Below are positions 43,328 through 64,000 of a stretch of 64,000 nucleotides of DNA, in pieces; within the stretch, counting starts at the first letter, position 1; each line of letters starts with the position of its first letter. Source of the stretch: Pseudanabaena sp. PCC 6802 (GTDB taxonomy: Bacteria; Cyanobacteriota; Cyanobacteriia; Pseudanabaenales; Pseudanabaenaceae); the NCBI RefSeq assembly GCF_000332175.1, contig NZ_KB235914.1, positions 3,964,868 to 4,028,867 of the forward strand, given 5' to 3'. Both the position numbers and the translations under genes were made by a program. The notes beneath the pieces were generated by a model. It made no database searches and was not told where the DNA came from. It was given only the letters and a program-made list of their open reading frames with translations.

Positions 43328-43400
43328 TAAAAAAGCTGAAAAACAGTAGAGCTAAATGTGATTTTGATTTCTTAATATAAACAATCAAAGGAGCTTGAAT

Positions 43401-44255
43401 ATGAAGGTAGTTTTATTCTGCGGTGGTCTTGGCACGCGACTGAGAGAACATTCTGAAACAATTCCGAAGCCAATGGTTGAAATCGGTTGTCGCCCGATTA
43501 TTTGGCACCTAATGCGGTACTATGCGCACTTTGGGCATAAGGACTTTATCCTATGTCTCGGTTACATGGGGAACTATATCAAGAACTATTTTCTTAACTA
43601 TAATGAATGTTTCTCTAATAACTTTACCCTTTCTAAAGGTGGGAAAAACATTCAGCTCCATAACAGTGACATTGAAGATTGGACAATTACGTTTGTTGAT
43701 ACTGGACTTAACTCCAACATCGGTCAGCGACTTGTGGCTGTAAAGCCATATTTAGAAGGAGAAGAAGTTTTCTTAGCTAACTATGCAGATGGTTTAAGCG
43801 ATCTCAACCTTGACGATTACCTCAATAACTTCCAGAGAAGAGGCAAAATTGCGAGTTTCCTCGCAGTACAACCATCACAATCTTTCCATGTGATTTCCTT
43901 GAGCGAAAATTCTCTAGTTCAAACTATTGAGCCGGTTGGCAACTCCGATCTCTGGATTAATGGTGGCTTTTTTGCCTTAAAGCAGGAAATTTTTGATTAT
44001 ATTCAGAACGGGGAAGAATTAGTTCTTGAGCCATTTCAGCGCCTAATTCGGAAAGAGCAATTGATTGCCTATCGAAATCCGGGGTTCTGGGCGTGTATGG
44101 ATACGCTAAAGGAAAAGATGATGTTTGACGAGATGCATGCTAAAGGCAATACTCCATGGTCTGTTTGGGAAACTTCTAAATCTGCAACTGGTGAAATCCT
44201 AAAACCTCAACTCTCTGATATGCAGCAAAAGCATCTTTTAGGGGTAAAGAAATGA
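43401..44255 (+). CDS. rfbF: glucose-1-phosphate cytidylyltransferase
   Basis: A 284-residue nucleotidyltransferase making CDP-glucose from CTP and glucose 1-phosphate. The start MKVVLFCGGLGTRLREHSE, IPKPMVEIG and the RfbF-typical IWHLMRYYAHFGHKDFILCLGY, together with ADGLSDLNLDDY, support the call. AAAGGAG lies 8 bases before the ATG at 43401; a TTG two codons earlier is not preferred. It is separated from rfbG by three genes yet provides its substrate. Confidence 0.95.
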   Translation: MKVVLFCGGLGTRLREHSETIPKPMVEIGCRPIIWHLMRYYAHFGHKDFILCLGYMGNYIKNYFLNYNECFSNNFTLSKGGKNIQLHNSDIEDWTITFVDTGLNSNIGQRLVAVKPYLEGEEVFLANYADGLSDLNLDDYLNNFQRRGKIASFLAVQPSQSFHVISLSENSLVQTIEPVGNSDLWINGGFFALKQEIFDYIQNGEELVLEPFQRLIRKEQLIAYRNPGFWACMDTLKEKMMFDEMHAKGNTPWSVWETSKSATGEILKPQLSDMQQKHLLGVKK

Positions 44256-48224: not shown

Positions 48225-48534
48225 AGGAAAGATATCTTCATGGCTCAATCGCCTAACTCAAAGTTAGAACCAAAATCCTGTCTAATCGCTTTATAGTCTG
48301 CCAGCAGTTAATTTCTTGTTAATCTTCTTATAACGCTCCCCAGAAATCGGGCAGGAGAATAAAACTATTAAAACACTGGAAAAGTTTAGGGTTAATCTTA
48401 ATGTCGCCATACTGATTGCACTGAATCTTAACCACGCTTTTGGTAACTGCAATTACATTTTATATTAGCTAACAATACAAGTATGTTCACAACTCAAATG
48501 GAACCGCTATAGTGGTTTGCAATTTAATACTCAA
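48225..48534. other. 310-base gap in the polysaccharide island
   Basis: An 18-codon ORF (48241-48297, MAQSPNSKLEPKSCLIAL) with GAAGGAAAG about 8 bases upstream begins right after the GT4 stop and might be a leader or remnant. The remainder is AT-rich with no recognised element. A promoter for the DUF4038 gene probably lies here, but I see no clear -35/-10 pair. Confidence 0.4.
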
Positions 48535-50145
48535 ATGTCTAAATCTCAATATTTGCTTTCGAGAAAAACTATTGGGCTATTAGGACTTTTTGTTATTGTC
48601 CTATGTATTTCCCTTTTAGCAAATAAAATTCCTCGAATCGCAACTAAAATTCTTCACTTACCGAGCGAAATACAAAGAATTGTCAAGTTTAATTTAAGCC
48701 CTAATATTGCTGTTACTTCTAGGGATAAAATTTCAATCCAACCCTTAACAGAGATGCGAGCTACTTCGGCAACTGGAGTGTTACGGGTTAATCCAACAAA
48801 TCCACGCTACTTTACTGATGGTGGAGGTAAAGCTGTTTACCTGACTGGGTCGCACACATGGTCAAATTTGCAGGATAGTGGGGGTTCCCCCTTCCCCCCC
48901 AAGTTCGACTATGCTACCTATCTGGGTTTCTTACAGAAAAATAATCATAATTTTTTTCGTTTATGGACTTGGGAGACATCCGGTCCCTGGATACAAACAA
49001 CCGTTAAAAATTACTGGTTCTATCCAATACCATATCAGCGTATTGGTTCCGATAAAGCGCTAGATGGAGAACCAAAATTTGATTTAACTCAATTTAATCA
49101 AGCCTACTTTGATAGGTTGCGCGAACGGGTTAAAGAAGCAGGCAATCGGGGAATTTACGTTTCCGTGATGCTTTTTAATGGTTGGAGTGTAGACAATGGG
49201 AAAGGGAATTTCCATAGTAGCAATCCTTGGAGAACACACCCTTTTAATAAAGCAAATAATATTAATGGAATTGATGGTGATTTCAATGGTGATAACAATG
49301 GAGAAGAAATTCACACATTGGTTTCACCTGCAGTAACAGCAATACAGGACGCATACGTTCGTAAAGTTATCGACACTGTGAATGATTTCGATAATGTCCT
49401 TTATGAGATCAGTAATGAAAGTAATAAGGATTCTCAGGATTGGCAATATCACATGACTACCTATATAAAAAACTATGAGAGAAGAAAACCTAAACAACAT
49501 CCTGTTGGGATGACTGCATTTGACGAACTTAAGTCTAATTCACCTCTTTTTGATAGTCCCGCTGATTGGATATCTCCTATTGGAGATATTGACGAGCGTC
49601 CTGTTGCTAGCGGCAAGAAGGTAATTCTTGCAGATACAGATCATTTATGCGGAATTTGTGGGAATAACCCGCAGTGGGTATGGAAGAGCTTTACAAATGG
49701 AGAGAATCCAATTTTTATGGATGCTTATGATAATGCCTTTGTCTTAGGATCAACTTTGATAAATCAAGCACCACCAGATTCACTAAATTATAGTCCGTGG
49801 GTCGTGTTACGACGTTATTTAGGATACACTCTAACCTACGCCAATCGGATGAATTTGGCTGCAATGACCCCACAAGGCGATCTGGCATCTACGGGGTATT
49901 GTCTAGCTAACCCTGCGTCAAGTGGTGCGGAATATTTAGTTTACGCTCCCTCGGGTGGTAGAACGATCGTCGATCTATCAGCTACTAAGCATGAATTAGT
50001 AGCCGAATGGCTGAATCCAAGCACTGGCATAGTTACCAGTGGAATTAAAACGGCTGGAGGCGGCAATCGTTCATTTTTCCCTCCGTTTAGTGGAGAAGCA
50101 GTACTTTACATCAAAGATGCTTCCCCTACCTATTCACAGTCCTAG
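48535..50145 (+). CDS. membrane-anchored DUF4038-type glycoside hydrolase
   Basis: A 536-residue protein with an N-terminal membrane anchor near residues 13-33 (IGLLGLFVIVLCISLLANK). From ~80 it has the DUF4038 barrel: YFTDGGGKAVYLTGSHTWSNLQD, HNFFRLWTWETSGPW, and YEISNESN near 295-302 holding a candidate acid/base Glu. The C-terminal ~90 residues (EYLVYAPSGGRTIVDLS... VAEWLNPSTG) are the putative collagen-binding/beta domain typical of the group. Related enzymes (GH140-like) cleave unusual pentose linkages such as apiosyl. It may trim or edit the glycan outside the cytoplasm. A TTG at 48517 is an alternative start. Confidence 0.85.
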   Translation: MSKSQYLLSRKTIGLLGLFVIVLCISLLANKIPRIATKILHLPSEIQRIVKFNLSPNIAVTSRDKISIQPLTEMRATSATGVLRVNPTNPRYFTDGGGKAVYLTGSHTWSNLQDSGGSPFPPKFDYATYLGFLQKNNHNFFRLWTWETSGPWIQTTVKNYWFYPIPYQRIGSDKALDGEPKFDLTQFNQAYFDRLRERVKEAGNRGIYVSVMLFNGWSVDNGKGNFHSSNPWRTHPFNKANNINGIDGDFNGDNNGEEIHTLVSPAVTAIQDAYVRKVIDTVNDFDNVLYEISNESNKDSQDWQYHMTTYIKNYERRKPKQHPVGMTAFDELKSNSPLFDSPADWISPIGDIDERPVASGKKVILADTDHLCGICGNNPQWVWKSFTNGENPIFMDAYDNAFVLGSTLINQAPPDSLNYSPWVVLRRYLGYTLTYANRMNLAAMTPQGDLASTGYCLANPASSGAEYLVYAPSGGRTIVDLSATKHELVAEWLNPSTGIVTSGIKTAGGGNRSFFPPFSGEAVLYIKDASPTYSQS

Positions 50146-50164
50146 AGAGGGATATACTAATTAG

Positions 50165-52000
50165 ATGAATTATCTATCTAGATTTTTGTATGTTATTCCT
50201 GCCCAAAAAGCAAAACTTATACTGATTGTATTTCTTTTTATCACAATCTCTGCATTGGACGCTCTAGGCATTGGTCTCGTCGGTCCATTTATTGCTTTAG
50301 CAGTAAAACCAGAAATGATTCAACACAATATCTGGTTATTCAACTTTCAAGAGTATTTGGGATTAAAGAGTGCCAAACATTTTATTGCCTTATTAGGACT
50401 ATCAATTGTTGTAGTTTTTTACTTTAAATCATTTCTCTACTACCAAATACAGAATTATGTATTGAAGTTCTGCTATACTCAGCAGGTCTTGCTTCGCCTC
50501 AGGATGTTGCATACTTATCTATCGCTACCCTATACATTTTATCTAAAAACTAATTCCGCTCATGTAATTCAGAATATCTCCGGCGAGTCTGCAAATTTCA
50601 CCTATTCGATTGCCATCCCACTTTTGAATTCGATTGCCAATGCTTTTGTTCTCATCGTTCTTTTATTGTTGCTGGTAAAGACAGACTTACTAGCTACAGT
50701 CAGTGTTTTAGGGCTTCTTTTAGTAGGCATTGCTCCATTTCACTATTTCAGGCACAAAGTCGCTCGTTGGGGTAAAGAAGGGCTAGAGGCAAATACTGAA
50801 ACTATCAGGATTGTCAATCATGCAATTGGAGGATTAAAAGCAACAAAACTGATTGGATGCGAAGGCTTTTTTGAAAACCAATTAGTCGCTCAAGCCAATA
50901 AGTATGCAAGAGCAGCTAGCCTTTTTCATTCTTTTCAACAGCTCCCTCGAATTGTTATAGAAACTCTTTTAATTACGTTTGTTGTTGGGTTTGTTTCCCT
51001 ATCTTTAATTTTTGTAGAGAGATCGGAAAACTTAGTTTCGGTTTTGAGTATTTTTGCAGTTGCTTCAATTCGCATAATACCATCAGCTAGCCAGCTTGTA
51101 ACTTGTATGGGTGTGCTGAGAAATGCAAAGCCTACACTTGATAGACTCTATCTAGATTTGAAGGAATTAGAGAAACCAGATTCTGTGAGATATCTTGCAA
51201 TGTCCCCTACCTCGACTTCAAGTGACATTTCCAGAAATCATAATATCGATAGCTTGAATATTGATAGAGTAGGAGGGTCTCAAGCTTTCACGGATCGCAT
51301 AGCCATTGATAGAGTAAATTACTGTTACCCTGAAGCTTCTACAAATGCACTGAAAGATGTTGGCTTGACGATTCGAAAGGGGGAATCGATCGCTTTAATT
51401 GGTAAGTCAGGATCTGGCAAAACTACTCTCGTTGATGTTTTCTTAGGGTTATTGATTCCTCAGTCTGGTGATATTCAAGTTGATGGTTTGTCTATATACA
51501 ACAATCTGCGATCCTGGCAAAATCTGATTGGCTACATACCTCAGTCCATTTTTCTAATGGATGACACTATTGAGAGAAATATTGCATTTGGCTTACCAGA
51601 CAGTCAAATTGATAAGCAAAAACTCGATCGTGCGGTCAGAATGGCTCAACTCTCAGAGCTAGTAGAACAACTGCCAGATGGTCTGCAAACCTTTGTTGGA
51701 GAAAATGGAGTTCGTCTTTCTGGGGGGCAACGTCAAAGGATCGGCATCGCCAGAGCACTTTACCACGATCGCGAAATATTGGTGTTAGACGAGGCAACTT
51801 CTGCCTTGGATAATGAAACGGAAAGTTTGATTGGCGATGCACTGCGAGAATTAAGCGGTACTAAAACAACGATCGTGATTGCCCATCGTTTAACAACGGT
51901 AGAACATTGCGATCGCATTTATGAAATGAACAGTGGACGCATCGTTAGAAGTGGTAGCTATCAAGAAATTGTCATAGAAGGCCAAAACTACCAGAGTTAA
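50165..52000 (+). CDS. ABC exporter with fused permease and ATPase, HepA/MsbA-like
   Basis: A 611-residue half-transporter. Six TM segments lie in the first ~320 residues. The ATPase follows with Walker A GKSGSGKTT near 412, signature LSGGQRQR near 518, Walker B ILVLDEATSALDNE near 538 and the H-loop His in IVIAHR near 569. A polar linker near 345-375 is not conserved. Such proteins flip lipid-linked oligosaccharides (PglK, WlaB) or, in heterocyst-forming cyanobacteria, export envelope polysaccharide (HepA). No Wzx flippase is seen so far, so this is the probable translocator of the island. Confidence 0.92.
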   Translation: MNYLSRFLYVIPAQKAKLILIVFLFITISALDALGIGLVGPFIALAVKPEMIQHNIWLFNFQEYLGLKSAKHFIALLGLSIVVVFYFKSFLYYQIQNYVLKFCYTQQVLLRLRMLHTYLSLPYTFYLKTNSAHVIQNISGESANFTYSIAIPLLNSIANAFVLIVLLLLLVKTDLLATVSVLGLLLVGIAPFHYFRHKVARWGKEGLEANTETIRIVNHAIGGLKATKLIGCEGFFENQLVAQANKYARAASLFHSFQQLPRIVIETLLITFVVGFVSLSLIFVERSENLVSVLSIFAVASIRIIPSASQLVTCMGVLRNAKPTLDRLYLDLKELEKPDSVRYLAMSPTSTSSDISRNHNIDSLNIDRVGGSQAFTDRIAIDRVNYCYPEASTNALKDVGLTIRKGESIALIGKSGSGKTTLVDVFLGLLIPQSGDIQVDGLSIYNNLRSWQNLIGYIPQSIFLMDDTIERNIAFGLPDSQIDKQKLDRAVRMAQLSELVEQLPDGLQTFVGENGVRLSGGQRQRIGIARALYHDREILVLDEATSALDNETESLIGDALRELSGTKTTIVIAHRLTTVEHCDRIYEMNSGRIVRSGSYQEIVIEGQNYQS

Positions 52001-52084: not shown

Positions 52085-53722
52085 ATGATGATTGATGCGC
52101 GATCGCTACCACCAGATGAAGTACTGGAAACACATGTTTGCATTATTGGGGCTGGGCCAGCAGGCATTACCTTAGCCCGAGAGTTTGCCAACCAGGATTT
52201 TCAGGTTTGTTTGCTAGAAAGTGGCGGATTGGAATTCGATCCGGAAGTTCAATCTTTGAGCGCTGGCACTGTAATTGGCGATCCTTATCCCGAGGTCAGT
52301 AGTACACGCCTTCGTCAATTTGGCGGTACTTCTCATACTTGGGAAGGGCAGAATGGTTATAAGGAATACGGCTTTCGGTGCTTGCCCCTCGATGAAATTG
52401 ACTTCGAGCAGCGAGACTGGGTGCCTTATAGTGGCTGGCCTTTTACCAAGGCGCATCTAAATCCATTCTACGAGCGAGCGCATGAGGTTTGCCAAATAGG
52501 CCCTTATGCTTACGATCCTGAGGATTGGCAAGATCGACGAGCAAAGCCATTAGCTTTTAAGAGCGATCGCGTTACCACGTCCATGAGCCAATATGCTCCC
52601 CGCTATCCCTTTACGGAAGGGTATCGAGAGGAAATTAGGCGATCGCCAAATATCAAAACAATCCTTTATGCCAATGTAGTTGAAATCGTTACCGACGAAA
52701 CAAGGCAAGCAGTCACGCGCTTGCGTATTGCCTCATTCCCAGATCGACAATTCTGGCTGAACGCCAAGGTATTTATTTTGGCTACAGGGGGACTAGAAAA
52801 TGCCCGTTTAATGTTGGCTTCTAACCGCCAGCAACCAGCAGGATTGGGCAATCAAAACGATTTAGTGGGTCGATTCTTTATGGATCGCCCCATTTTAAGC
52901 TGTACGCTATTTCCGTACAGCCATAAACTACTGGAGCAAACTGCCCTGTACGATATTTATCGAACTAAGGGAGTTCCAGTTATGGCGAGAGTTCATCTCA
53001 CAGAGGATTTGATGCGCCGCGAACGCCTTTTGAATAACGGTGCTCAAATCTTCCCTCGACCGTTACAACATCAACGGGAGGCTACTCTTGCCCTCCGTTC
53101 TCTAGTCTCTGCAATTCGCGAGCGCAAACCGCTTGAGGATTGGTTTAAGCATGTGAGTGTAGCACTGAAGGGCAGTGACTATATTATGGCATCAGGATTC
53201 TGGGCAGCAATCCGACAGTTGCCGACACTGCGACGCGGTGCCTGGTCTTACCTACCCTACGAAAAAAGACGGTTTTCTCAGTTTGAGATCTTCTATCAAA
53301 TCGAACAAACTCCCGATCCTAATAACCGCGTGATGCTAAGTGCAGAGCGCGATCGCTTCGGTCAAAACAAAGTCGAGATTCACTGGCGTTTAAACGAGAT
53401 AGACATTCAAAATGCCACTCGGGTACAGGAGATTTGGGCAGAAGAGTTTGACAAAGCAGGGCTGGGTGAATTGCAGTTTGCGCGGAAACGAGAAGATTGG
53501 AAATTAGAGAAACCTGCGATGCACCACCACATGGGCACCACCCGGATGCACGACAATCCCAAACAGGGAGTAGTTGATGCCAACTGTAAAGTTCATAACA
53601 TTGCAAATCTATTCATAGCTGGTTGTTCTGTATTCCCCACCGCAGGGTATGCTAACCCCACACTTACAATTATTGCCTTATCTCTGAGACTAGCAGATCG
53701 TATCAAAACATTGATGCAATAA
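52085..53722 (+). CDS. GMC-family FAD oxidoreductase
   Basis: A 545-residue flavoprotein. The FAD motif is VCIIGAGPAGITLAREFANQ near residues 18-37. RQFGGTSHTWEG near 77-88 and ILATGGLENARLMLAS near 242-257 are further FAD contacts. The C-terminal GMC domain has MHHHMGTTRMHDNP near 480-493 with the active-site His, and GYANPTLTIIAL near 524. The enzymes oxidise alcohol groups; a sugar or lipid-linked sugar is likely in this context. It is followed by SDR and Gfo/Idh genes, a repeated arrangement in surface-glycan loci. Confidence 0.9.
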   Translation: MMIDARSLPPDEVLETHVCIIGAGPAGITLAREFANQDFQVCLLESGGLEFDPEVQSLSAGTVIGDPYPEVSSTRLRQFGGTSHTWEGQNGYKEYGFRCLPLDEIDFEQRDWVPYSGWPFTKAHLNPFYERAHEVCQIGPYAYDPEDWQDRRAKPLAFKSDRVTTSMSQYAPRYPFTEGYREEIRRSPNIKTILYANVVEIVTDETRQAVTRLRIASFPDRQFWLNAKVFILATGGLENARLMLASNRQQPAGLGNQNDLVGRFFMDRPILSCTLFPYSHKLLEQTALYDIYRTKGVPVMARVHLTEDLMRRERLLNNGAQIFPRPLQHQREATLALRSLVSAIRERKPLEDWFKHVSVALKGSDYIMASGFWAAIRQLPTLRRGAWSYLPYEKRRFSQFEIFYQIEQTPDPNNRVMLSAERDRFGQNKVEIHWRLNEIDIQNATRVQEIWAEEFDKAGLGELQFARKREDWKLEKPAMHHHMGTTRMHDNPKQGVVDANCKVHNIANLFIAGCSVFPTAGYANPTLTIIALSLRLADRIKTLMQ

Positions 53723-53787
53723 CGAACTGCTTCTTCGATCCGACTTAACTTAATTGTGTAAACTCTAGCTTTCTAAAGTAAACGATA

Positions 53788-54900
53788 ATGAAGATTGGTA
53801 TTGTAGGAGCCAACGGATTTGTTGGCAATCGGGCTGTTGAAATACTTCATCTTGAAGGAAACGAAGTGCGCCCGATCGTAAGGTCTGCTGCCAGTATCGA
53901 TCGCCTGACGCAAAAAAACTTAGACTGTCGCATTGCGGGTGCCTTCGATCGAGCTGCACTAGAAGCAGCATTTAAAGGCTGCGATGTTATAGTACACTCA
54001 ATTTTAGGCAGTCCTGGATTGATTCGCGGTAGCATTGCCCCTGCCTATGAAGCTGCCCAGCGAGCTGGAGTTCGTCGCATTATCTACTTAAGCTCGATGA
54101 TCGTCCATCGTTCTGCGCCAGCCGTCGGTACTACCGAAGCCAGCCCCTTTGTGGAAGATCAGCCTTTCCCTGCTCATTCTGCCAAAATCTATGCAGAGCG
54201 CAAACTATTGGAATTGCGAAAAAATGGTTCTGTAGAGGTTGTAATCTTTAGACCCGGAATTGTATTTGGACCGCGATCGAGATGGGTCATAGATCTGGCA
54301 AATCAACTTTCTCAGGGCACAGCATACTTTATCAATGAAGGTAAAGGCATTTGTAATAGCGTCTACATCGATAATCTCATTCATGCAATTCGATTAGCGA
54401 TGACGGTGCCAGAAGCGGATGGGGAAGCATTTTTTGTGGGCGATCGCGAGCGTGTTACGTGGTTCGAGTTCTATCGTCCTTTTGCCGAAGCTTTTGGAGT
54501 CGATCCAACGCAAATTCCGCATCTGAATGCCCCTGAGTTTAACCATAGCTGGAAGCAACAAGTTAAGGATACACTTTGGAACTCACAAGTTGTGCAAAAA
54601 GTTTTAGCAGCAGTATCTGACGATCTGAAGCAAAAAATTAAGTCTGCAATTCCAAAACGGAATAAACGGACAATAGAGATAGAGCCATTTCAGCAAGCTG
54701 AGACTAAACCACAACCTGTAGTAACTGAAATGATGGCTGAATTACAACAGTCTCAGTACAAACTTCCCTTTAGCAAGGCAGAAAAAATATTAGGCTATGA
54801 ACCCATCATTTCCTTCGACGAAGGTTGCCGTCGCTCTATAAAGTGGTTGGCAGAGACCAAACAATTCCATCAACTACTAAAGCTAGTTGAGATCGATTAA
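53788..54900 (+). CDS. NAD-dependent epimerase/dehydratase (SDR)
   Basis: A 370-residue extended SDR. The start KIGIVGANGFVGNRAVEIL is the dinucleotide motif, SSMIVHR near 107-113 contains the catalytic Ser and IYAERK near 133-138 is the YxxxK pair. VVIFRPGIVFGPRSRW follows. The region ~265-320 is a polar insertion (SAIPKRNKRTIEIEPF). Substrate unknown; with GMC and Gfo/Idh neighbours it may reduce or epimerise the oxidised sugar. Confidence 0.87.
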   Translation: MKIGIVGANGFVGNRAVEILHLEGNEVRPIVRSAASIDRLTQKNLDCRIAGAFDRAALEAAFKGCDVIVHSILGSPGLIRGSIAPAYEAAQRAGVRRIIYLSSMIVHRSAPAVGTTEASPFVEDQPFPAHSAKIYAERKLLELRKNGSVEVVIFRPGIVFGPRSRWVIDLANQLSQGTAYFINEGKGICNSVYIDNLIHAIRLAMTVPEADGEAFFVGDRERVTWFEFYRPFAEAFGVDPTQIPHLNAPEFNHSWKQQVKDTLWNSQVVQKVLAAVSDDLKQKIKSAIPKRNKRTIEIEPFQQAETKPQPVVTEMMAELQQSQYKLPFSKAEKILGYEPIISFDEGCRRSIKWLAETKQFHQLLKLVEID

Positions 54901-54937
54901 TACTAGACCTCCTCTATAAAATAAAGGGGATATCATC

Positions 54938-56038
54938 ATGACACTCAAAGTTGCAATTGCTGGGGCAGGACATATTGCTAACGTTCATGCCAAGGCTGTT
55001 ACCAATCAGGGATGTGAAGTGGTAGCATTGATTGAAAAATTTCCAGACAAAGCTGCCGCTTTTGCCCAAAAGTTCCACATAAGACACCAATATTCCACAT
55101 TAGAAGCAGCACTAGCTGAGGCAAAGTTTGACGCTTTAGTTATTGGTACCCCTAATTTCTTGCACGCTTCACAGGCGATCGCTGCTCTCAATGCTGGAGT
55201 GCCAGTGATGGTCGAAAAGCCAATGGCAATGAACGCTATTGAGGGCGAGCAAATGTTAGCGGCAAGCCTGAAATCAGGCACGGTGCTGATGGTAGCGCAC
55301 TGCTGGCGCTTTGATGAAGAGGTACTATGGCTCAGAGCGCAGACTGATAAATTGGGTAAGATCGTCCGTACGAAGAGTTACGGCGTGCATACCCACTGGG
55401 GGCCAGGCGGTTGGTTCGTCCAGAAAGAATTTGCTGGGGGTGGTGCAATCGCGGATATAGGTATCCACGCACTCGATACAGCACGTTTCTTGCTCGGCGA
55501 CCCGCAGCCTGTAAGCGTGTTTGCCCAGATTGGCACGCATTACCAGGATTTCGACGTGGACGACACTGGTCTTATCATCGTCAATTGGGATAGCGGTGCC
55601 ACTTCGTATATCGAATCAGGCTGGTGGCAGCCTTATGCCGATGGGCCACAAGCCAGTACGCAGCTCTATGGAACGCAGGGTTTTGGCCAGCTCTTTCCCA
55701 CTCGGTTGCTGCTTCCCAACCCGAAACCACAAAAAAGTTTTACTCAATTCCTTCCCAGTCGCCTGCGGTCGAGGCTAAGGAGTAAAGAAGTAGTGGAGGT
55801 TAAATCTGGTTTTCAGTTCCCACGCAAAGCACATTATCCACAGTCTATGTACGATCGACAGATGGCACATTTTTTTAAATGCATTCAAGCCAATTGCAAT
55901 CCTATCTCCGAAGCAGTAGGCGGAGCAATTAACATGAAGGTTATTGATGCAGCTTATGAGAGCGCAAAAACGGGGAAAGCGATCGAGCTTTCTAGAATTG
56001 CACAGAGTAATTTTGAAAAATTATCGAACAGGATGTAA
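54938..56038 (+). CDS. Gfo/Idh/MocA-family sugar oxidoreductase
   Basis: A 366-residue NAD(P)-dependent enzyme. The Rossmann start is KVAIAGAGHIANVHAKAV, MVEKPMAMNAIEGEQML near 91-107 contains the conserved EKP motif, and GGGAIADIGIHALDTARFLLG near 165-185 has the catalytic Asp/His. An AAGGGGA site precedes the ATG. Its stop overlaps the next ATG by one base (TAATG). It probably acts on a nucleotide or lipid-linked sugar. Confidence 0.9.
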   Translation: MTLKVAIAGAGHIANVHAKAVTNQGCEVVALIEKFPDKAAAFAQKFHIRHQYSTLEAALAEAKFDALVIGTPNFLHASQAIAALNAGVPVMVEKPMAMNAIEGEQMLAASLKSGTVLMVAHCWRFDEEVLWLRAQTDKLGKIVRTKSYGVHTHWGPGGWFVQKEFAGGGAIADIGIHALDTARFLLGDPQPVSVFAQIGTHYQDFDVDDTGLIIVNWDSGATSYIESGWWQPYADGPQASTQLYGTQGFGQLFPTRLLLPNPKPQKSFTQFLPSRLRSRLRSKEVVEVKSGFQFPRKAHYPQSMYDRQMAHFFKCIQANCNPISEAVGGAINMKVIDAAYESAKTGKAIELSRIAQSNFEKLSNRM

Positions 56039-56907
56039 TGGGACAGTTTATTCACTTCTTTCTCACCAAATTCAATGTCAGAAGTTTCCCGGAGCTGAAA
56101 CCTGGCTGCGATCCTATCTGGCTTAATAGAAGGTTTGAACTGTTTGACAAGTTCTGCTTTCCATCCGTCCGCAGCCAGTCCAATCAAAATTTCAAGTGGT
56201 TGGTTTTCTTTGACATTGACACACCAGAGCCTTTTAAACAAAAAATATCAGAATACGTTCAAACATGGGGAAATTTTGTGCCAGTCTATCTTGACTGCCC
56301 ATTACCCTATGGGGAATTTCCTGACGAGGTGAGGAAGGTAGTCAGTCAATACATTCCTGCTGATTGTGAATACCTGATTACAACCTGGCTTGATAACGAC
56401 GATGCTATCCATAAAGATTACGTCCAAATGATTCAGGACAATTTCGATTGCCAGGATGGAGAAACTTTGAATTTCTTCTTTGGTTACCAGTTAGCTGAAG
56501 GCAGGCTTTACTTTGATTTTGAGCTTGCCAACCACTTCATTAGTTTAATTGAAAAATATAACCCGGAATCATTTAATACTTGCCTTTGCAGACCGCACAA
56601 GGAGCTATATAGGGTATGCAAATCTGCTAAGAAGATATTTTGCAAGCCAGTTTGGGTTGAAGTTGTCCATAACTCCAACTATATGAATGTTTATCGCAAA
56701 GGTTTTCGCGTACCACCTGGAGACATTTTAGATGAATTTTCGATTAAGGTAGAGAAGAAGAACGATCGCGCAATTCCATTTCTGCTCGAACAAGCTAAAA
56801 TTGCAGTTTTCTTCCCCTACTACTTCCTTAGAAAGGTCTTTCTAAGAGTCAAGCACAAACAGCTTGAGGAGTTGACTATGAGTCGCTTCGAATTTAAGAA
56901 CTATTGA
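56038..56907 (+). CDS. rhamnosyltransferase-like protein (Rhamno_transf family)
   Basis: A 289-residue protein starting GQFIHFFLTKFNVRSFPELKPG, with RRFELFDKFCFPSVRSQSNQNFKWLVFFDIDTPEPFK near 31-65 and ITTWLDNDDAIHKDYV near 115-130. The DNDD resembles the DxD metal motif. This matches the putative rhamnosyltransferase family (PF11316). No signal peptide. Coupled to the preceding gene by a 1-base overlap. Acceptor unknown. Confidence 0.85.
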   Translation: MGQFIHFFLTKFNVRSFPELKPGCDPIWLNRRFELFDKFCFPSVRSQSNQNFKWLVFFDIDTPEPFKQKISEYVQTWGNFVPVYLDCPLPYGEFPDEVRKVVSQYIPADCEYLITTWLDNDDAIHKDYVQMIQDNFDCQDGETLNFFFGYQLAEGRLYFDFELANHFISLIEKYNPESFNTCLCRPHKELYRVCKSAKKIFCKPVWVEVVHNSNYMNVYRKGFRVPPGDILDEFSIKVEKKNDRAIPFLLEQAKIAVFFPYYFLRKVFLRVKHKQLEELTMSRFEFKNY

Positions 56908-56934
56908 TACTTAAAATTAACAGGAATTCTACCT

Positions 56935-58062
56935 ATGAAAATTCTCATTACTGGTGGAGCTGGCTTTATCGGCAAGTGGTTGATTGAGAAGATACCACCT
57001 GAAGTTGAGATTGTTGTCATAGACTCTCTAGACAAGCAAGTTCACCGCAAGTCTCAGGATTTTGCACCAGAGTTAATAGCACGTGCTAAATGCATTAAAG
57101 CCGACGTTCAAGAGATCGCCGATTACCGAGAGAGCGTAGAAGGGACGGATGTAATCGTTCATTTGGCAGCTCAAACTGGAACAGGTCAGTCAATGTATGA
57201 AATCAGCCGTTACGTGCAGGACAATGCAAATGGTACGGCAAAGTTACTTGAGTTGATTTCAGCGCTCGATCGCAAACCTCGTCGCATAGTCTTGTCTTCC
57301 AGTCGAGCAGTTTATGGTGATGGGGCTTATACCAACGGACAGAACGTCCTTTACCCCAAAGGGCGATCGCTAGAAAATTTACAACGAGGAATTTGGGAGG
57401 TTTGTGGCTCTGAAGGTGAAATATTAACGCCGTTGCCTATGCAGGAAACCCATCTCACCAAACCGACTTCTGTCTATGGCTTAACCAAACTATGGCAAGA
57501 GCAGTTACTAGAAAATTACTGCGAGAGCCAAGCGATCGATCTAGTGACGCTCCGTTTTCAGAATGTTTATGGCCCGAAGCAAGAACTAGGAAACCCATAC
57601 ACTGGGATTATTGGCATTTTCACCAATGCGATCTCGCAAGGCAGTCCGTTAGAAATTTTTGAAGATGGGCTGGTAACAAGAGATTTTGTATTCATCGGCG
57701 ATGTTGCTGATGCTGTAATTAAATGTGTCGCTGACACAAGACCGCTGACCACTACTATTAATGTAGGTAGCGGTCGAGCTGTTACTCTGATCGAAGTAGT
57801 AGAAACCATCGCCCAGCTTTTGCATAAAAAAGCAGACTTTAGTGTCTCAGGGCGTTTCCGTGTAGGGGATGTTCGCCATGCTGTTGCTGACATGAATCAC
57901 TATGAAACCATATTTGGGAAATGGCAACCCACATCTCTCAAAGCTGGACTAGCTCAATATCTTGAGTGGTATTTACATCAGGAGCCTCTTAACCCAAGTA
58001 CTTTACAAGCATCATTAAAAGAAATGGAGCAGAAAGGTTTGTTATTAGCTAAACATACTTAG
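56935..58062 (+). CDS. NAD-dependent epimerase, dTDP-L-rhamnose-4-epimerase-like
   Basis: A 375-residue extended SDR with NAD motif KILITGGAGFIGKWLIE. A ~45-residue insertion after SSSRAVYGDGAYT (residues ~122-165) is typical of dTDP-L-rhamnose 4-epimerases and contains the EVCGSEG remnant of their cysteine-bearing loop. VYGLTKLWQE near 178-187 is the YxxxK motif. The normal metal-like cysteines are mostly gone. It likely epimerises a 6-deoxyhexose. AGGA lies ~9 bases upstream of the ATG. Confidence 0.85.
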   Translation: MKILITGGAGFIGKWLIEKIPPEVEIVVIDSLDKQVHRKSQDFAPELIARAKCIKADVQEIADYRESVEGTDVIVHLAAQTGTGQSMYEISRYVQDNANGTAKLLELISALDRKPRRIVLSSSRAVYGDGAYTNGQNVLYPKGRSLENLQRGIWEVCGSEGEILTPLPMQETHLTKPTSVYGLTKLWQEQLLENYCESQAIDLVTLRFQNVYGPKQELGNPYTGIIGIFTNAISQGSPLEIFEDGLVTRDFVFIGDVADAVIKCVADTRPLTTTINVGSGRAVTLIEVVETIAQLLHKKADFSVSGRFRVGDVRHAVADMNHYETIFGKWQPTSLKAGLAQYLEWYLHQEPLNPSTLQASLKEMEQKGLLLAKHT

Positions 58063-58074
58063 GCTCTGAAAAAG

Positions 58075-59328
58075 ATGAAAGTTTTACACCTGAGTACTTC
58101 TGATGTTGACAACGGGGGGGCAAGAGCAGCTTACAGGTTACATCAAGGTCTACAATTGCTTGGCTGTTCTTCGCAAATGTTAGTGCGAGCTAAGTTCAGC
58201 CACGAAAATACGGTTATTGCCGAAAAGTCTTTACTAACCAAGCTAGCCCCCCCCATTTCTAGCTTTCCTCTGCGGATTTACCCCCAGCGTAATTCTGCCA
58301 TGTTCTCGCCACAGTGGTTTCCTGATGTACTAGAAAGAAGAGTCAAGCAACTCAATCCAGACATCATCAACCTTCATTGGGTTTGTAATGGGTATCTGCA
58401 AATTGAAACGCTTCCGAAATTTAGCAAACCTTTAGTATGGACCCTTCACGATATGTGGCCCTTTACTGGAGGGTGTGACTATATCAGAGATTGCGAAAAT
58501 TTTAAGGAATCTTGTGGAAATTGCCCGCAGCTACTAAGCAGATCGCCATGGGATCTTTCCCGTTGGGTATGGCAGCGAAAACATAAATCTTGGAAAAATG
58601 TAAACCTGACTGTTGTTGCAACTTCCTCATGGATGGCAGATTGCGCTCGATCGAGCTCGCTGTTCCAACATCTACGCATAGAAACAATTCCCCTTGGTCT
58701 TGATACGGAAAAATATAGGCTGATCGACAAACAGGTAGCCCGCAACTTACTAAATCTGCCTCAAGATAAACAACTCGTGCTTTTCGGTGCAGTTAACGCC
58801 ACCTCAGATCGAAGAAAAGGATTTCAGCTATTGCTGCCAGCTCTACAGCAACTTAGCAGTAGTGGATGGCAAGATCGTCTAGAACTAGTTGTTTTTGGTT
58901 CGTCAACGCCAGAACAATCGATTGATTTGGGTTTCAATACTCACTATCTGGGATTCGTACATGATGACATCGCGTTGGCATTAATCTATGCAGCAGCAGA
59001 TGTAGCGATCGTGCCATCAATTCAGGAGGCATTTGGACAAACTGCTTCTGAGTCTCTCTCCTGTGGTACCCCTGTTGTTGCTTTTAATACAACTGGACTG
59101 AAAGATATTGTCGATCACAAAAAGAATGGGTATCTTGCCACCCCTTTTGAAATTGAAGATCTGGCTAAAGGAATTGTTTGGGTTCTGGAAGACGTAGAAC
59201 GCCATCAAAAATTGCAGGACTCTGCCCGGGAGACAGGTTTACGGGACTTTGCTTCTAAAATTCAAGCTCGCCGCTATCTAACCTTATACGAAGAGATTTT
59301 AGGCGGCAGTAAACCAGGACGTACATAA
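58075..59328 (+). CDS. family 4 glycosyltransferase
   Basis: A 417-residue GT-B enzyme. MKVLHLSTSDVDNGGARAAYRLHQGLQLLG is the glycosyltransferase group 1 N-terminal pattern, LVWTLHDMWPFTGGCDYIRDC near 120-140 is typical, and QEAFGQTASESLSCGTPVVAF near 317-337 is the GT4 donor-binding E-x7-E. It starts 12 bases after the preceding stop and is in the same operon. Donor sugar unknown. Confidence 0.92.
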   Translation: MKVLHLSTSDVDNGGARAAYRLHQGLQLLGCSSQMLVRAKFSHENTVIAEKSLLTKLAPPISSFPLRIYPQRNSAMFSPQWFPDVLERRVKQLNPDIINLHWVCNGYLQIETLPKFSKPLVWTLHDMWPFTGGCDYIRDCENFKESCGNCPQLLSRSPWDLSRWVWQRKHKSWKNVNLTVVATSSWMADCARSSSLFQHLRIETIPLGLDTEKYRLIDKQVARNLLNLPQDKQLVLFGAVNATSDRRKGFQLLLPALQQLSSSGWQDRLELVVFGSSTPEQSIDLGFNTHYLGFVHDDIALALIYAAADVAIVPSIQEAFGQTASESLSCGTPVVAFNTTGLKDIVDHKKNGYLATPFEIEDLAKGIVWVLEDVERHQKLQDSARETGLRDFASKIQARRYLTLYEEILGGSKPGRT

Positions 59329-59356
59329 GTACAGAGAAATATTGCTAGCTAAGTTT

Positions 59357-60289
59357 ATGAAGTTAAATTCTCTACGATCGCATTTAAAGGCACTGCGGCC
59401 AAGACAATGGACAAAAAATTTAGTTGTATTTGCTGCACCTCTGTTTGCTTTTGAAATTTCAACTAAATCACTATTTGGAGGCTTATTGGCATTCTGCCTT
59501 TTTTGCGCAGCTTCTAGTAGTTTTTACCTGCTTAACGATATTTTTGATGTCAAATCCGATCGCCAGCACCCGGTTAAATGTAAACGCCCAATAGCATCTG
59601 GTGCCGTAGCAATTCCAACTGCGATCGCCATGGCAGCGATCCTCTTAATAACTGCACTGGCTATAGGTTGGTGGAATTCAACAGGTTTAGGGTTAGCAAT
59701 TCTTTGTTATGCCCTTTTGCAGGTTGCCTATAACCTCCGGCTCAAACATACAGTAATTTTGGATGTTATCGCGATCTCAAGTGGATTTATTCTCAGAGCA
59801 TTTGCGGGTGCTGCCGCTACCGATATTGTACTGTCTTCTTGGTTCCTGCTCTGTACTGCCATGCTAGCTCTATTTTTAGGAATTGAGAAGCGAAAAGCAG
59901 AGCTGAGACTTTCAGAGCTAAGAGGCGGTAAATCTCGTTCAGTTCTCCATCGTTATTCTCTTCCCTTGCTAAGCAGAATGGAAAGTGTCGTAACCAATGG
60001 CACGATTATTACCTATGCACTGTGGAGTTCTGGCCCCTTGGTGCGAGGTGCCTCTACAGCTTGGATGATGTTGACATTACCTTTTGTGTTGTATGGAGTC
60101 TTTCGCTATCAATTGCTAAGCGATCCCCAGGAGATCGCTCGCCGTAACAATGAGAGTGAAAGTGGAGGACAAACTGAGCGCCCAGAAGAAGTTCTACTGG
60201 GTGATAAGCCATTATTGCTAACCGTAATGGCTTGGGTAGCAACAACGTTTAGTATTTTATTTTTAAAACGATATGGATATATATCCTGA
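59357..60289 (+). CDS. UbiA-family polyprenyl-phosphate phosphoribosyltransferase (DPPR synthase-like)
   Basis: A 310-residue polytopic membrane enzyme. HLKALRPRQWTKNLVVFAAP is the start typical of decaprenyl-phosphate phosphoribosyltransferases. SSFYLLNDIFDVKSDRQHP holds the first Asp motif and KRPIASGAV follows; GIEKRKAELRLSEL near 173-186 is the second loop. This family transfers 5-phosphoribose from PRPP to a polyprenyl phosphate, the first step to lipid-linked pentoses such as decaprenyl-phosphoryl arabinose. A TTG at 59342 is an alternative start. The adjacent HAD phosphatase fits removal of the 5-phosphate. Confidence 0.85.
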   Translation: MKLNSLRSHLKALRPRQWTKNLVVFAAPLFAFEISTKSLFGGLLAFCLFCAASSSFYLLNDIFDVKSDRQHPVKCKRPIASGAVAIPTAIAMAAILLITALAIGWWNSTGLGLAILCYALLQVAYNLRLKHTVILDVIAISSGFILRAFAGAAATDIVLSSWFLLCTAMLALFLGIEKRKAELRLSELRGGKSRSVLHRYSLPLLSRMESVVTNGTIITYALWSSGPLVRGASTAWMMLTLPFVLYGVFRYQLLSDPQEIARRNNESESGGQTERPEEVLLGDKPLLLTVMAWVATTFSILFLKRYGYIS

Positions 60290-60382
60290 ATATTTTCTGA
60301 CAGCCAGAGTGATAGCAATCTGCAGGCTGTTTAAGAGACAATACTTTGAGGTGTATGCCAACTTACCTTTTGTGAAGAGTAA

Positions 60383-60976
60383 ATGTTAAATAGTTTAACT
60401 ATCATCCTCAAAAAACTCCTGTTCTTTATTCCACAATTCTCATTACGGCAATCAAGTGAGAGAATTCAAAAGAGGCAAGCGGCATATCTTCCAAGTCAGG
60501 CAGATATATTAGCTTCTATCGATCTGAGTTGCTTAATATCATTTGGAATTTGTGGGGTTATTCTCGACCTGGATAATACCATTGTCTCTGAAGACGATCG
60601 CTACCTGTCTCCCAATGCCGAAATTTGGATCGAGCAAGCCAAGGGTAACAACATCAAATTTTTTTTGTTGTCGAATGGTAAGAAGCGTTATCGTGTCGAA
60701 TATTGGTCGGCACGTTTGGATATACCAGCGATCAGCCCAGCTAGAAAACCGTTCCCTAAAGCATTTCGAAGAGCTATAAAGCATATGCAGCTTCAACCCA
60801 AACAGGTTGCTGTAATTGGAGATAGCCGCCATACTGACGTTTTGGGGGCATGGCTGGCGGGGTGTACGAGCATTCAAGTTGCGTCCCTACCCCATCCACC
60901 TCGTTGGTGGGAAAAACTGCTAGGAAAATACGTGCAAAAACCTTATCCTAAAGGTCTTAGTCTTTGGAATTTTTAA
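60383..60976 (+). CDS. YqeG-family HAD-IIIA phosphatase
   Basis: A 197-residue HAD phosphatase. GVILDLDNTIVSED near residues 59-72 holds the nucleophile Asp, FFLLSNGK near 93-100 is motif II, the Lys of ARKPFPKAF near 116-124 is motif III, and VIGDSRHTDVLGA near 143-155 is motif IV. Relatives dephosphorylate phosphatidylglycerol phosphate or other lipid and sugar phosphates. It follows the UbiA-type gene by 93 bases and could dephosphorylate its product. The N-terminus is basic and may touch the membrane. Confidence 0.88.
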   Translation: MLNSLTIILKKLLFFIPQFSLRQSSERIQKRQAAYLPSQADILASIDLSCLISFGICGVILDLDNTIVSEDDRYLSPNAEIWIEQAKGNNIKFFLLSNGKKRYRVEYWSARLDIPAISPARKPFPKAFRRAIKHMQLQPKQVAVIGDSRHTDVLGAWLAGCTSIQVASLPHPPRWWEKLLGKYVQKPYPKGLSLWNF

Positions 60977-61011
60977 CCATTTGACTCCTACAAGCGAAAT
61001 TGAGTTTTCTC

Positions 61012-61350
61012 ATGCCAAGTTATCTTTTACCGAGTTTACTGATTCTGATCACCGTTGGGTTAAATACTTTAGCACAATATCTGCTAAAACTCGGCTCTGG
61101 TCAAAATCTCCTGAACCTCTACTTAGTGGGGGGACTTTTTGCTTATGGATTAAGCACAATTTTCTATATCCTGGTTTTGGGTAAATTAAATTTATCTGTT
61201 GCCTATCCTATTGCAATTGGGTTGACTGTTACGTGCACCACCATTACTGGTGCAACTCTTCTAGGAGAAAAGGTAACTACTGTACAATGGTTTGGCATAG
61301 GGTTGATGTTAAGTGGGATTTCTGCAATCGCTTCTGGAGTCAAACAATAA
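61012..61350 (+). CDS. SMR/EamA-type small membrane transporter
   Basis: A 112-residue protein with four hydrophobic segments. GKLNLSVAYPIAIGLTVTCTTITGATLLGEKVTTVQWFGIGLMLSGI is the typical EmrE/ArnE-like C-terminal half. The family exports drugs or flips undecaprenyl-linked sugars. Beside the UbiA and phosphatase genes, a flippase role for a lipid-linked sugar is plausible. The ATG at 61012 is preferred over an in-frame TTG at 61000. No strong ribosome binding site is visible. Confidence 0.85.
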   Translation: MPSYLLPSLLILITVGLNTLAQYLLKLGSGQNLLNLYLVGGLFAYGLSTIFYILVLGKLNLSVAYPIAIGLTVTCTTITGATLLGEKVTTVQWFGIGLMLSGISAIASGVKQ

Positions 61351-61405
61351 TTAACTTGCTACTCTCGATTAATTTGTGCAACAGCAGAAATAGCAATTAT
61401 TGATT

Positions 61406-62554
61406 ATGATCGATCCTTTAGCTCAGCACGAATCGCAAGAAGAGAAACAATTAAAATTACCCCTAAAACAAACATCAAAATTTCATGGGTTTGATTTTTT
61501 GCGTGCCATTTTTTCAGTTGCAATAGTAGCAGATCACGCTGGTCTTTTTACTTTAGCAACTGTGCAAGGAGTAGATACGCTAACGAACCTGCTATATGGC
61601 AATTTTAGTTATCTTGCCGTTCCAACTTTTTTTCAAATTTCTCTCTTTTTGTTTTATTTCAAAAGTAAAAAAGTAGAGTTTCGTAGATTTTTTCAAAAAA
61701 GAATTATTAGACTGATCTCTCTTTATCTTTTTTGGGTTAGTCTTTTTGTATTGCTGAGGTTTTTATTTAAAGGAGGAAATGCTGGAACTGCTCAATTTGC
61801 ACCTATATCAGTAAGGGGATGGATAGAATTTATTGTAAGTGGTTGTAATTCCCCATTTTACTTCTTTTTTTCACTAATTTTCACAACCATTCTCGCAGCT
61901 CTTATAGCTTTATTTTTTAAAGCCTCGGAAAATAATTCAATAAGAGTGATTTACTTTTTGTTTGTTATCTCTTGTATTCTAATATTTCTCTTTTCGATAT
62001 TCGATCCAATTATTAGTAATAGTTATATTGGCGATCGAGAATCATCGCTTGTACAGACAATATCCGGTATTGCTCAGTGGGATTATAATCCCCTCAATTT
62101 CCTACCCTATGTTTTTAGCGCTGCTATTGTTGTACATGAGTTGGATCGGGGCAAGCTTGAAGAAATAACTCCACTATTCCAACTGAAACTATGGAGTTTA
62201 TTAACCTTATTTTTAATATTTACTTTGTTAGAGTGGATACTACTTGCAAGTTTAGTTCACTATTCCAGACTGTCGCTTGTTTTTGGTTCTTGGCTCCTCT
62301 TGTACCTTGCCTTGCTAACAACTAGGCAAGTCCCTTGTGTTGTTAAACTAATCTCAGACTGTTCTTTGGGACTCTACGCACTTCATTTATTTTTTACACA
62401 TATTCTCTTTGCGGAGAATACAAGCTTTCTGCACGCACTTAGCGCTCTAGTCCCCGGTCTAGATATATTAGTCGAGTTCTTACTGGCTTTAATCGGTTCG
62501 ATTGCCCTAACACTTCTTCTAAAGAAGATCGAAGGTTTGAAAAATTTTGTTTAA
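61406..62554 (+). CDS. acyltransferase family 3 (OafA/WecH-like) membrane protein
   Basis: A 382-residue integral membrane acyltransferase with about ten hydrophobic segments. KFHGFDFLRAIFSVAIVADHAGLF near residues 26-49 includes the conserved Arg and His of the family. It probably acetylates the glycan or a lipid-linked precursor. The gene is AT-rich, contains many TTT/ATT codons and has no GCGATCGC octamer, suggesting foreign origin. The start at 61406 lacks a clear ribosome binding site; a TTG at 61400 is an alternative. Confidence 0.85.
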   Translation: MIDPLAQHESQEEKQLKLPLKQTSKFHGFDFLRAIFSVAIVADHAGLFTLATVQGVDTLTNLLYGNFSYLAVPTFFQISLFLFYFKSKKVEFRRFFQKRIIRLISLYLFWVSLFVLLRFLFKGGNAGTAQFAPISVRGWIEFIVSGCNSPFYFFFSLIFTTILAALIALFFKASENNSIRVIYFLFVISCILIFLFSIFDPIISNSYIGDRESSLVQTISGIAQWDYNPLNFLPYVFSAAIVVHELDRGKLEEITPLFQLKLWSLLTLFLIFTLLEWILLASLVHYSRLSLVFGSWLLLYLALLTTRQVPCVVKLISDCSLGLYALHLFFTHILFAENTSFLHALSALVPGLDILVEFLLALIGSIALTLLLKKIEGLKNFV

Positions 62555-62633: not shown

Positions 62634-63236
62634 ATGAACCCTCGATTAATTCTAAAATCTATAATATGGTGCTATCAAAAGTATAGATTAGGTGCAATTG
62701 GACAAAAAACCAATGTGAGTGTTTTTGCCGACTTTCTTGGCGACAGAAAAAAAATATTTTTGGGGCAAGAGATCACAATATGTAAGTATGCCACTTTGGA
62801 AGTCGATCCGTCGGATACCGATCGCTCGAAGATTATTATTGGCGATCGCACGCTAATTAGTTCATTTGCAATTCTTCGTACCTATGGCGGCACGATTAAA
62901 ATCGGAAGCTCATCTTTTGTGAATTCCTTCTCGGTGCTCTATGGACATGGAGATCTCACAATTGGCAACGGTTGTTTGATCGGGCCGCAAGTAACAATCG
63001 TTCCAGTCAACTATGGTTTTCAAGACCGCAATATCCCGTTTAGGGAACAAATTCCCAGCTTAAAAGGAATTGTAATTGAAGATGATGTATGGATTGGCGC
63101 AGGAGTAACAATTTTAGATGGGTGCATAGTTGGAAAAGGTTCTGTTATTGGCGCGGGAGCAGTAGTAACTAAAAGTGTGGAACCTTACTCAATAGTTGCT
63201 GGCGTTCCAGCCAAGAAAATCGGGAGCCGAGAGTAA
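62634..63236 (+). CDS. hexapeptide-repeat acyltransferase
   Basis: A 200-residue left-handed beta-helix enzyme. Hexapeptide repeats include IIIGDRTLISSFAIL, IKIGSSSFVNSFSVL, LTIGNGCLIGPQVTI and IVIEDDVWIGAGVTILDGCIVGKGSVIGAGAVVTKSV, ending with the standard VAGVPAKKIG. Members O- or N-acetylate sugars. The unusual N-terminal ~65 residues precede the helix. It lies 80 bases after the acyltransferase-3 gene. Confidence 0.92.
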   Translation: MNPRLILKSIIWCYQKYRLGAIGQKTNVSVFADFLGDRKKIFLGQEITICKYATLEVDPSDTDRSKIIIGDRTLISSFAILRTYGGTIKIGSSSFVNSFSVLYGHGDLTIGNGCLIGPQVTIVPVNYGFQDRNIPFREQIPSLKGIVIEDDVWIGAGVTILDGCIVGKGSVIGAGAVVTKSVEPYSIVAGVPAKKIGSRE

Positions 63237-63252
63237 ACAAGATCGGGTGAAG

Positions 63253-64000
63253 ATGAACGGGATAAACGGAAAAGTAATGAATTTAAAGTTAGTGACTTTA
63301 CCACTGGTAAAGCATATTCGCCAGTATCGGATCGATATTGCGATCGCTATAAGTTTGTCGATTGCGATCGCAATTGCCACCTATTTCGGTACCTATGCAA
63401 TTCCTGACCCCATTTTTACCGATTTTTACGCTCAAGATGTCTGGTTCGGCAGCGATATTCCCACTGTGTTTGGGAATATCACTAGTGTAAACAGCGATTT
63501 TGGCCGCAATAACAAGCATCCCCTGTTTCCTCTGCTAGTCTTTCCATTAGTCTTTGCCGTAAGTAAGCTTTTTCACCTCGAGCCGCTCTCAGCAGCGAGA
63601 ATTGTAGCGGTTGGTGTGTCCGTGCTGTGGGTTAGCTCGCTCTATGCTCTATTCAGAGTTATGGGCTGCTATCGACTCGATGCCACTTTATTTAGTCTCG
63701 TAGGTGCAGTCAGTGCGGCAGGAATTTTTTGGCTCGTCATTCCCGAATCGTTTTCCTTTGGCTCTCTAACTATTATCCTGGGCTTAGTATTTGTTGCTTT
63801 AACCCAATTTCGTTCGCTGTCTACTGCTTGGTACGTTGCAGTCAATGTCCTCACGGTTAGCATTACGATCACAAATTGGATGGTTGGGATTCTCGCTACG
63901 TTTGCAAATCATCGCTGGCGCAAAATGCTTCAGATCCTGGCTATTTCTTTACTAGTAGCAACAGGGCTATGGATTTTGCAACGGATTGTCTTTACCAATT
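63253..64000 (+). CDS. polytopic membrane protein, possible membrane glycosyltransferase, cut by window edge
   Basis: About 249 codons are visible, open to the right edge. Hydrophobic segments lie near residues ~25-45, ~96-112, ~118-140, ~150-175 and ~200-225 (for example YRIDIAIAISLSIAIAIATYFGTY). The periplasmic stretch DPIFTDFYAQDVWFGSDIPTVFGN precedes the second helix. The shape resembles GT39/dolichyl-phosphate-mannose transferase-like or glycan polymerase proteins, but no diagnostic motif is visible, so no function is claimed. ATG at 63253 or 63277 are both in frame, with a weak ribosome binding site for either. Confidence 0.6.
   Translation, partial: MNGINGKVMNLKLVTLPLVKHIRQYRIDIAIAISLSIAIAIATYFGTYAIPDPIFTDFYAQDVWFGSDIPTVFGNITSVNSDFGRNNKHPLFPLLVFPLVFAVSKLFHLEPLSAARIVAVGVSVLWVSSLYALFRVMGCYRLDATLFSLVGAVSAAGIFWLVIPESFSFGSLTIILGLVFVALTQFRSLSTAWYVAVNVLTVSITITNWMVGILATFANHRWRKMLQILAISLLVATGLWILQRIVFTN

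Follow-up and report, generated by a model that had tools for sequence, protein, structure and literature searches.

The 64,000-nucleotide stretch of the Pseudanabaena sp. PCC 6802 genome analyzed here (contig NZ_KB235914.1, positions 3,964,868 to 4,028,867; hereafter, the window) carries three contiguous genes for a UbiA-superfamily protein, a HAD phosphatase, and a small multidrug resistance (SMR)-type transporter. Together, they would constitute a compact pathway to a polyprenyl-phosphoryl-D-ribofuranose donor for a GT-C glycosyltransferase, without epimerization at C2, a reading to which we assign a probability of roughly 0.72. That the product is read as polyprenyl-phosphoryl-ribose (polyprenyl-P-ribose) is mainly because of a comparison between loci of this kind and cyanobacterial loci in which UbiA is accompanied by DprE1 and DprE2. 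The framework of three-component pentofuranose systems is known from Kelly et al (2024; PMC11127046), and the module is best read as a variant of them in cyanobacteria.

In the scheme we infer, UbiA would transfer 5-phosphoribose from phosphoribosyl pyrophosphate (PRPP) to polyprenyl phosphate, probably undecaprenyl phosphate, at the cytoplasmic face of the membrane; the HAD protein would then strip the 5′-phosphate, leaving polyprenyl-P-ribose, which the SMR protein would carry across the membrane. There, the putative GT-C enzyme, a 1,105-aa protein encoded from position 63196, would hand the ribofuranose on to an exported glycan.

UbiA, HAD, and SMR form a conserved triad

The original prediction had placed a UbiA enzyme, a HAD phosphatase, and an SMR transporter next to each other, downstream of a GMC flavoprotein and a short-chain dehydrogenase/reductase (SDR1). 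All five genes are intact open reading frames (ORFs) on the plus strand, located where they had been placed. UbiA, HAD, and SMR are indeed contiguous, with gaps of ∼90 bp (UbiA–HAD) and 20–35 bp (HAD–SMR), and the family scans agree with their assignment. GMC and SDR1 do lie upstream, but at a distance of 4.4–5.6 kb from UbiA and with four genes in between (encoding a Gfo/Idh protein, a putative rhamnosyltransferase, a second SDR termed SDR2, and a GT4 protein); true adjacency is thus limited to the UbiA-HAD-SMR triad. This adjacency is not due to chance because it recurs across Cyanobacteria, phylum-wide. PHROG matches of the triad proteins were weak or none, and no Rfam family was found in the window.

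The UbiA ORF spans 59342–60289, with a likely ATG at 59357 (59357–60289, plus strand, 310 aa), and its product was assigned to the polyprenyl-phosphate phosphoribosyltransferases (DPPRS/PPPRS type). It scored 259.7 bits against NF008978 (decaprenyl-phosphate phosphoribosyltransferase), above the cut-off of 207, and remained below the cut-offs of the sister models NF008977 (224.1 versus 234) and NF008976 (211.4 versus 474); residues 7–298 align to PDB 8j8j with an E value of 1.4e-46. When the PRPP-contacting residues of Rv3806c from Mycobacterium (PMC10994848) were used as the reference, all 10 were found to be kept (R22, K28, Y70, N73, D77, K87, R90, Q135, Y138, and K143). Y157 of Rv3806c corresponds to F in the window UbiA, as it does in some mycobacteria (PMC10994848). 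The 10 residues were constant throughout the 24 related loci compared, except that Q135 is N in three distant ones. The genome encodes five further UbiA proteins, in which Y70 and Q135 differ in all cases and K87 in four (full-length alignment). N73, D77, D81, and Y138 are common to the window UbiA and these paralogues, and R22 and K28 do not separate the two cleanly, two paralogues having R at the former and one K at the latter position. As the PRPP residues are present, and as phosphoribose sites are not conserved across the wider UbiA superfamily (PMC10994848), PRPP is the probable donor, which points to the window UbiA being a phosphoribosyltransferase of the mycobacterial type. The resemblance to DPPR synthase originally proposed is thereby supported, both by the NF008978 match and by the PRPP-binding residues.

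HAD and DprE1 do not coincide in the loci surveyed

Two sets of loci were surveyed, one obtained from whole-genome searches, in which 20-kb neighborhoods were compared, and one consisting of 80 named, annotated cyanobacterial loci. Ninety UbiA loci extended at least 3 kb downstream of the gene. HAD and SMR were both present in 55, HAD only in 8, SMR only in 3, DprE1 together with DprE2 in 18, and none of them in 6 (49, 8, 3, 17, and 6, respectively, after removing duplicates of the UbiA sequence); the 66 loci with HAD and/or SMR are referred to as triad-like. HAD adjoins UbiA in 63 of the 90 loci, at a median gap of 88 bp. HAD and DprE1 were never found together, the latter being present in 0 of the 63 HAD loci and in 18 loci without HAD; the corresponding Fisher value (1.2e-12) is descriptive only, because loci related by descent enter it as if they were independent and a few duplicates are among them.

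Homologues of DprE1 and DprE2 go with arabinose (PMC11127046). In the cyanobacterial loci where they accompany UbiA (e.g., L049, L053, L060–L062, L163, and L206–L210), the UbiA protein is ∼50–70% identical to that of the window and has the same PRPP residues, whereas DprE1 and DprE2, often together with a HAD-IB phosphatase fused to a flippase-like domain, replace the YqeG-type HAD and SMR. This fusion was observed in 14 of the 18 DprE-type loci, and it lies beside UbiA, DprE1, and DprE2 in L061, L062, L210, L213, and L214 (TIGR00374, scored for L061). From their gene content, the two locus types look like alternative solutions to dephosphorylation and export, with epimerization being part of only one of them.

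Cyanobacteria do encode true DprE1 and DprE2. With the DprE1 model, the proteins from L049, L053, and L061 reached 458–546 bits, one of them passing the cut-off of 500. The DprE2-like SDRs near them stayed below their own cut-off (97–201 bits versus 250), with the L049 and L053 proteins passing NF005489. At E ≤ 1e-10, DprE1 was absent from the source genome (5.6 Mb, 99.7% complete), from 11 of the 12 other triad genomes, and from genome G166. The exception, G091 (loci L048 and L129), has the triad on contig C16 and DprE1/DprE2 on another contig (C3), beside a second UbiA-like ORF of 507 aa; L149 (Scytolyngbya sp. HA4215-MV1) is apparently the same contig as L048. In 12 related genomes, the DprE1 model yielded only partial matches to the FAD domain (20–42 bits, versus 458–546 bits for true DprE1). 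Searching the source genome for a hidden DprE1 with PF04030 gave no match, and its four PF01565 proteins, considered as candidates, were rejected, as they resemble GlcD, GlcD/GlcE-like, and MurB proteins. The best DprE2 match of the source genome is not SDR1; it is encoded elsewhere (27% identity, E 7e-22).

When 95 distinct UbiA rows were placed on a tree, the DprE label required five changes, compared with a mean of 16 after shuffling, that is, it is clustered. The best tree implies more than one switch of the label, although only one change is forced when well-supported branches alone are considered.

Oxidoreductases of the island as candidate epimerases

Polyprenyl-phosphoryl ribose, the likely product, requires no oxidase/reductase pair. 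A ribose lipid might still be converted further. SDR2 (56935–58062, plus strand) is a GalE-like extended SDR (145 bits against PF01370; 121.5 bits against the galE model, below its cut-off) and, by analogy to ORF13 of Citrobacter, a possible pentofuranose epimerase. ORF13 of Citrobacter youngae O2 is a GalE-like SDR that changes ribose to xylose, and its loss turns xylofuranose into ribofuranose (PMC11127046). By the same logic, the triad could make polyprenyl-P-ribose and SDR2, or SDR1, could epimerize it to a different pentofuranose, such as xylofuranose. We consider this unlikely: SDR2 is not conserved with the triad outside islands of the same family, neither SDR accompanies it beyond a few islands, SDRs of the GalE type are frequent in glycan islands, and the likeness to ORF13 is one of SDR type.

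According to the original prediction, the GMC protein and SDR1 could act as analogues of DprE1 and DprE2, respectively. DprE1 is a VAO-type FAD oxidase; the GMC flavoprotein (52085–53722, plus strand, 545 aa) matches PF05199 and none of NF053785, PF01565, and PF04030. DprE2 was defined by NF053786 as a classical SDR of ∼250 aa; SDR1 (53788–54900, plus strand) is an extended SDR of 370 aa (epimerase/3Beta_HSD type; PF13460/PF01370/PF01073) without a match to that model at E ≤ 0.001. Both genes belong to the same island but lie outside the conserved module. The pair might nevertheless act in an analogous manner, with GMC oxidizing C2 of polyprenyl-P-ribose and SDR1 reducing the product to polyprenyl-P-arabinose, in which case it would share no homology with DprE1 and, with DprE2, only the superfamily. 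The closest kin of GMC in the PDB (8hdd/6a2u and 7w2j) and its relatives, which are glucose/fructose dehydrogenases and pyranose oxidase, would suit an oxidation of sugars; the source genome lacks DprE1; and all five triad loci having either gene have both (upstream in L014–L016 and L018, downstream in L136). On the other hand, GMC/SDR1 were within 10 kb of UbiA in only these 5 of 66 triad-like loci, and 61 lacked both, some of the loci being truncated. A module-type HAD was present in 11 surveyed genomes, of which 8 had no GMC (E ≤ 1e-60) and 9 no SDR1 (E ≤ 1e-50). Among 386 genomes, 15 have a GMC homologue at the same threshold, and 12 of these lack any UbiA relative (E ≤ 1e-30); SDR1 homologues, again at the same threshold, were found in 4, of which 2 likewise lack one. 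Eight loci with distant GMC homologues (41–54% identical) had no SDR1 or UbiA recognized nearby, and, in the window, four genes intervene before UbiA is reached. Conversion to arabinose by this pair is therefore quite improbable. Because the two genes occur together in all five loci, their recruitment in this lineage to epimerize polyprenyl-P-ribose in the manner of DprE, that is, an independent invention of pentofuranose epimerization based on a GMC flavoprotein, can be envisaged, and is very unlikely as well. A role for GMC and SDR1 at a different step in this glycan island is probable; the search terms used, in an open-access library, brought up no paper linking GMC oxidoreductases to exopolysaccharide clusters of cyanobacteria.

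Thus, a role of GMC and SDR1 as analogues of DprE1 and DprE2 is not supported: most loci with the module lack the pair, other cyanobacteria have true DprE1 and DprE2 next to a related UbiA, and homologues of GMC and SDR1 are found in genomes lacking a relative of this UbiA. Of the lipid-linked pentose route as first conceived, the polyprenyl-phosphoryl pentose is retained, in keeping with the PRPP residues of UbiA, the phosphatase, and the transporter; epimerization by GMC and SDR is not, and the likely product is polyprenyl-P-ribose.

A dedicated phosphatase, a small transporter, and a GT-C-like protein

The HAD protein (60383–60976, plus strand, 197 aa), proposed here as the 5′-phosphatase of polyprenyl-P-ribose-5-P, is a HAD-IIIA phosphatase of the YqeG type, with 155.3 bits against TIGR01668 (cut-off 89.1) and a weak match to PF09419 (PGP_phosphatase). 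Both matches would also be expected if it were an ordinary, phosphatidylglycerophosphate-phosphatase-like YqeG that resides beside UbiA incidentally. This is highly improbable considering the short median distance of the two genes and the presence of a second, distant YqeG in triad genomes. YqeG was present in all 25 genomes searched, and triad genomes, except G363, show two copies, that of the module being 53–77% and the distant one ∼30% identical to the window HAD. Module and distant copies are split by one branch with a support of 100 (SH-aLRT), although the labels on this tree were assigned by BLAST score, so that the split in part restates similarity. Module HADs keep the motifs DLDNT, SNG, KP, and GD(S/G)xHTD; where they have SNG and GD(S/G)xHTD, the copies found in all genomes carry SNN and GDRxFTD. 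The window HAD is not orthologous to the latter and belongs to a separate paralogous group. Judged by these sequence features, it is a specialized, module-dedicated paralogue of YqeG, and, by analogy with its family, it would be suited to dephosphorylating a lipid-linked phosphomonoester at this step.

The SMR/ArnE-like transporter, the proposed flippase of the lipid-linked ribose, is encoded by an ORF spanning 61000–61350, with an ATG at 61012 (61012–61350, plus strand). It scored 29.9 bits against PF00893, over the cut-off, and its position beside UbiA and HAD is conserved across loci. Between the triad and the GT-C gene lies a gene for a membrane acyltransferase (Acyl_transf_3; 61400–62554, plus strand; PF01757, 69.1 bits), copies of which (42–55% identical) occur in islands of the same family.

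The acceptor-side enzyme is probably the GT-C-like protein encoded from 63196, the gene of which leaves the window (63196–63999, plus strand, 5′ part); the full ORF (15196–18513 of L018) encodes 1,105 aa, comprising a membrane-embedded N-terminal part followed by ∼650 further residues. Of 60 deduplicated triad-like loci, 27 have a homologue no more than 10 kb away. Evidence for the fold comes from the model of one homologue (447 aa, in L157; pLDDT 84.8). This model resembles ALG12 (VIA Z 23.7, 3.2 Å over 322 residues), AftB (20.5, 6.0 Å over 360 residues), ArnT (20.0, 4.0 Å over 322 residues), and AftD (17.9, 4.4 Å over 316 residues). The homologue is thus modeled as a GT-C protein, a shared fold that does not show the substrate. 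Searching PDB and Pfam by sequence with the alignment of this family brought up nothing convincing; DUF6080 was matched by 4 of its 18 members. The C-terminal half of a homologue of the 1,105-aa protein was modeled as a mixed beta/helical structure at a pLDDT of 55.6, too weak to name a fold.

The linkage to an SMR transporter and to GT-C enzymes, whose donors are lipid-linked sugars, together with the fact that the closest solved and assayed relatives of UbiA use decaprenyl or farnesyl phosphate, makes it extremely unlikely that UbiA employs PRPP with a nonpolyprenyl acceptor and that the product is not a polyprenyl-P-pentose at all, even if sequence cannot reveal acceptor specificity.

Several observations weigh against a ribose-specific UbiA-HAD-SMR-GT-C pathway as outlined above. 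Eight loci have HAD without a detected SMR, and six are without HAD, SMR, and DprE1. The UbiA loci share descent, so the exclusion of HAD and DprE1 does not represent independent events. The match of SMR to the ArnE model is weak (36 bits against a cut-off of 92), and a GT-C candidate, including PMT_2 and GT87 types, was present within 10 kb in only 36 of the 60 deduplicated triad-like loci. Lastly, the five GMC/SDR1 loci, of which L136 has another gene order, leave a lineage-specific link possible.

Other features of the window

Upstream of the GMC gene, the region 48517–52000 encodes a DUF6298/apiosidase-like protein beside an ABC exporter, whose best NCBIfam matches (PglK, MsbA, and HepA) are all below cut-off. 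The region 38932–44255 looks like a branched deoxysugar cassette, encoding a CDP-glucose 4,6-dehydratase-like protein, a C-methyltransferase (Methyltransf_13/14), an RmlC-like epimerase, and a nucleotidyltransferase; DUF4910/HTH_47 and PIG-L genes are found near it. On the minus strand, 9671–11884 encodes a diverged phosphoketolase-like protein (XFP, 49.7 bits), with a dxs gene nearby at 13010.

Relation to known systems and implications

In the mycobacterial decaprenyl-P-arabinose pathway (Rv3806c, Rv3807c, DprE1/DprE2, Rv3789, and Emb/Aft), a homologous phosphoribosyltransferase with the same PRPP pocket, a small proposed exporter, and GT-C acceptor enzymes are found, as in the window; unlike that pathway, the window lacks DprE1 and DprE2, and its phosphatase is from another family. 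With other YqeG HAD-IIIA phosphatases, the window HAD has the family model and the catalytic motifs in common, its own group being tied to UbiA. Closer in composition is the three-component pentofuranose system of Citrobacter youngae O1/O2 (ORF15 PPPRS-PRP, ORF14 flippase, and ORF12 GT136), whose UbiA-type synthase, which carries a HAD domain, uses PRPP to make farnesyl-P-ribose, and in which a GT-C enzyme transfers ribose from the lipid (Kelly et al, 2024; PMC11127046). Both have a polyprenyl phosphoribose synthase, a HAD phosphatase, a small EmrE/ArnE-related transporter (in the window, a candidate flippase), and a GT-C enzyme; the GT-C family of the window is set beside GT136 by fold class. 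In contrast to the fused PRP domain of Citrobacter, the phosphatase of the window is a separate, YqeG-type protein. Ribose is the product in Citrobacter when the epimerase is missing, and the same is predicted for the window module. The main text of PMC11127046 does not mention cyanobacteria or YqeG; earlier descriptions of the cyanobacterial variant may exist outside the open-access library searched.

These results suggest two interchangeable gene sets for the synthesis of lipid-linked pentofuranose donors in many cyanobacteria, which have so far proved mutually exclusive. Of the two, a YqeG-type HAD with SMR would predict ribose, and DprE1 with DprE2, often together with a HAD-IB/flippase fusion, arabinose. 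Strains carrying ribofuranose or arabinofuranose may thus be predictable from their genotype. At the same time, the module suggests a candidate new role for a paralogue of YqeG and points to a GT-C family for which there is no Pfam model.

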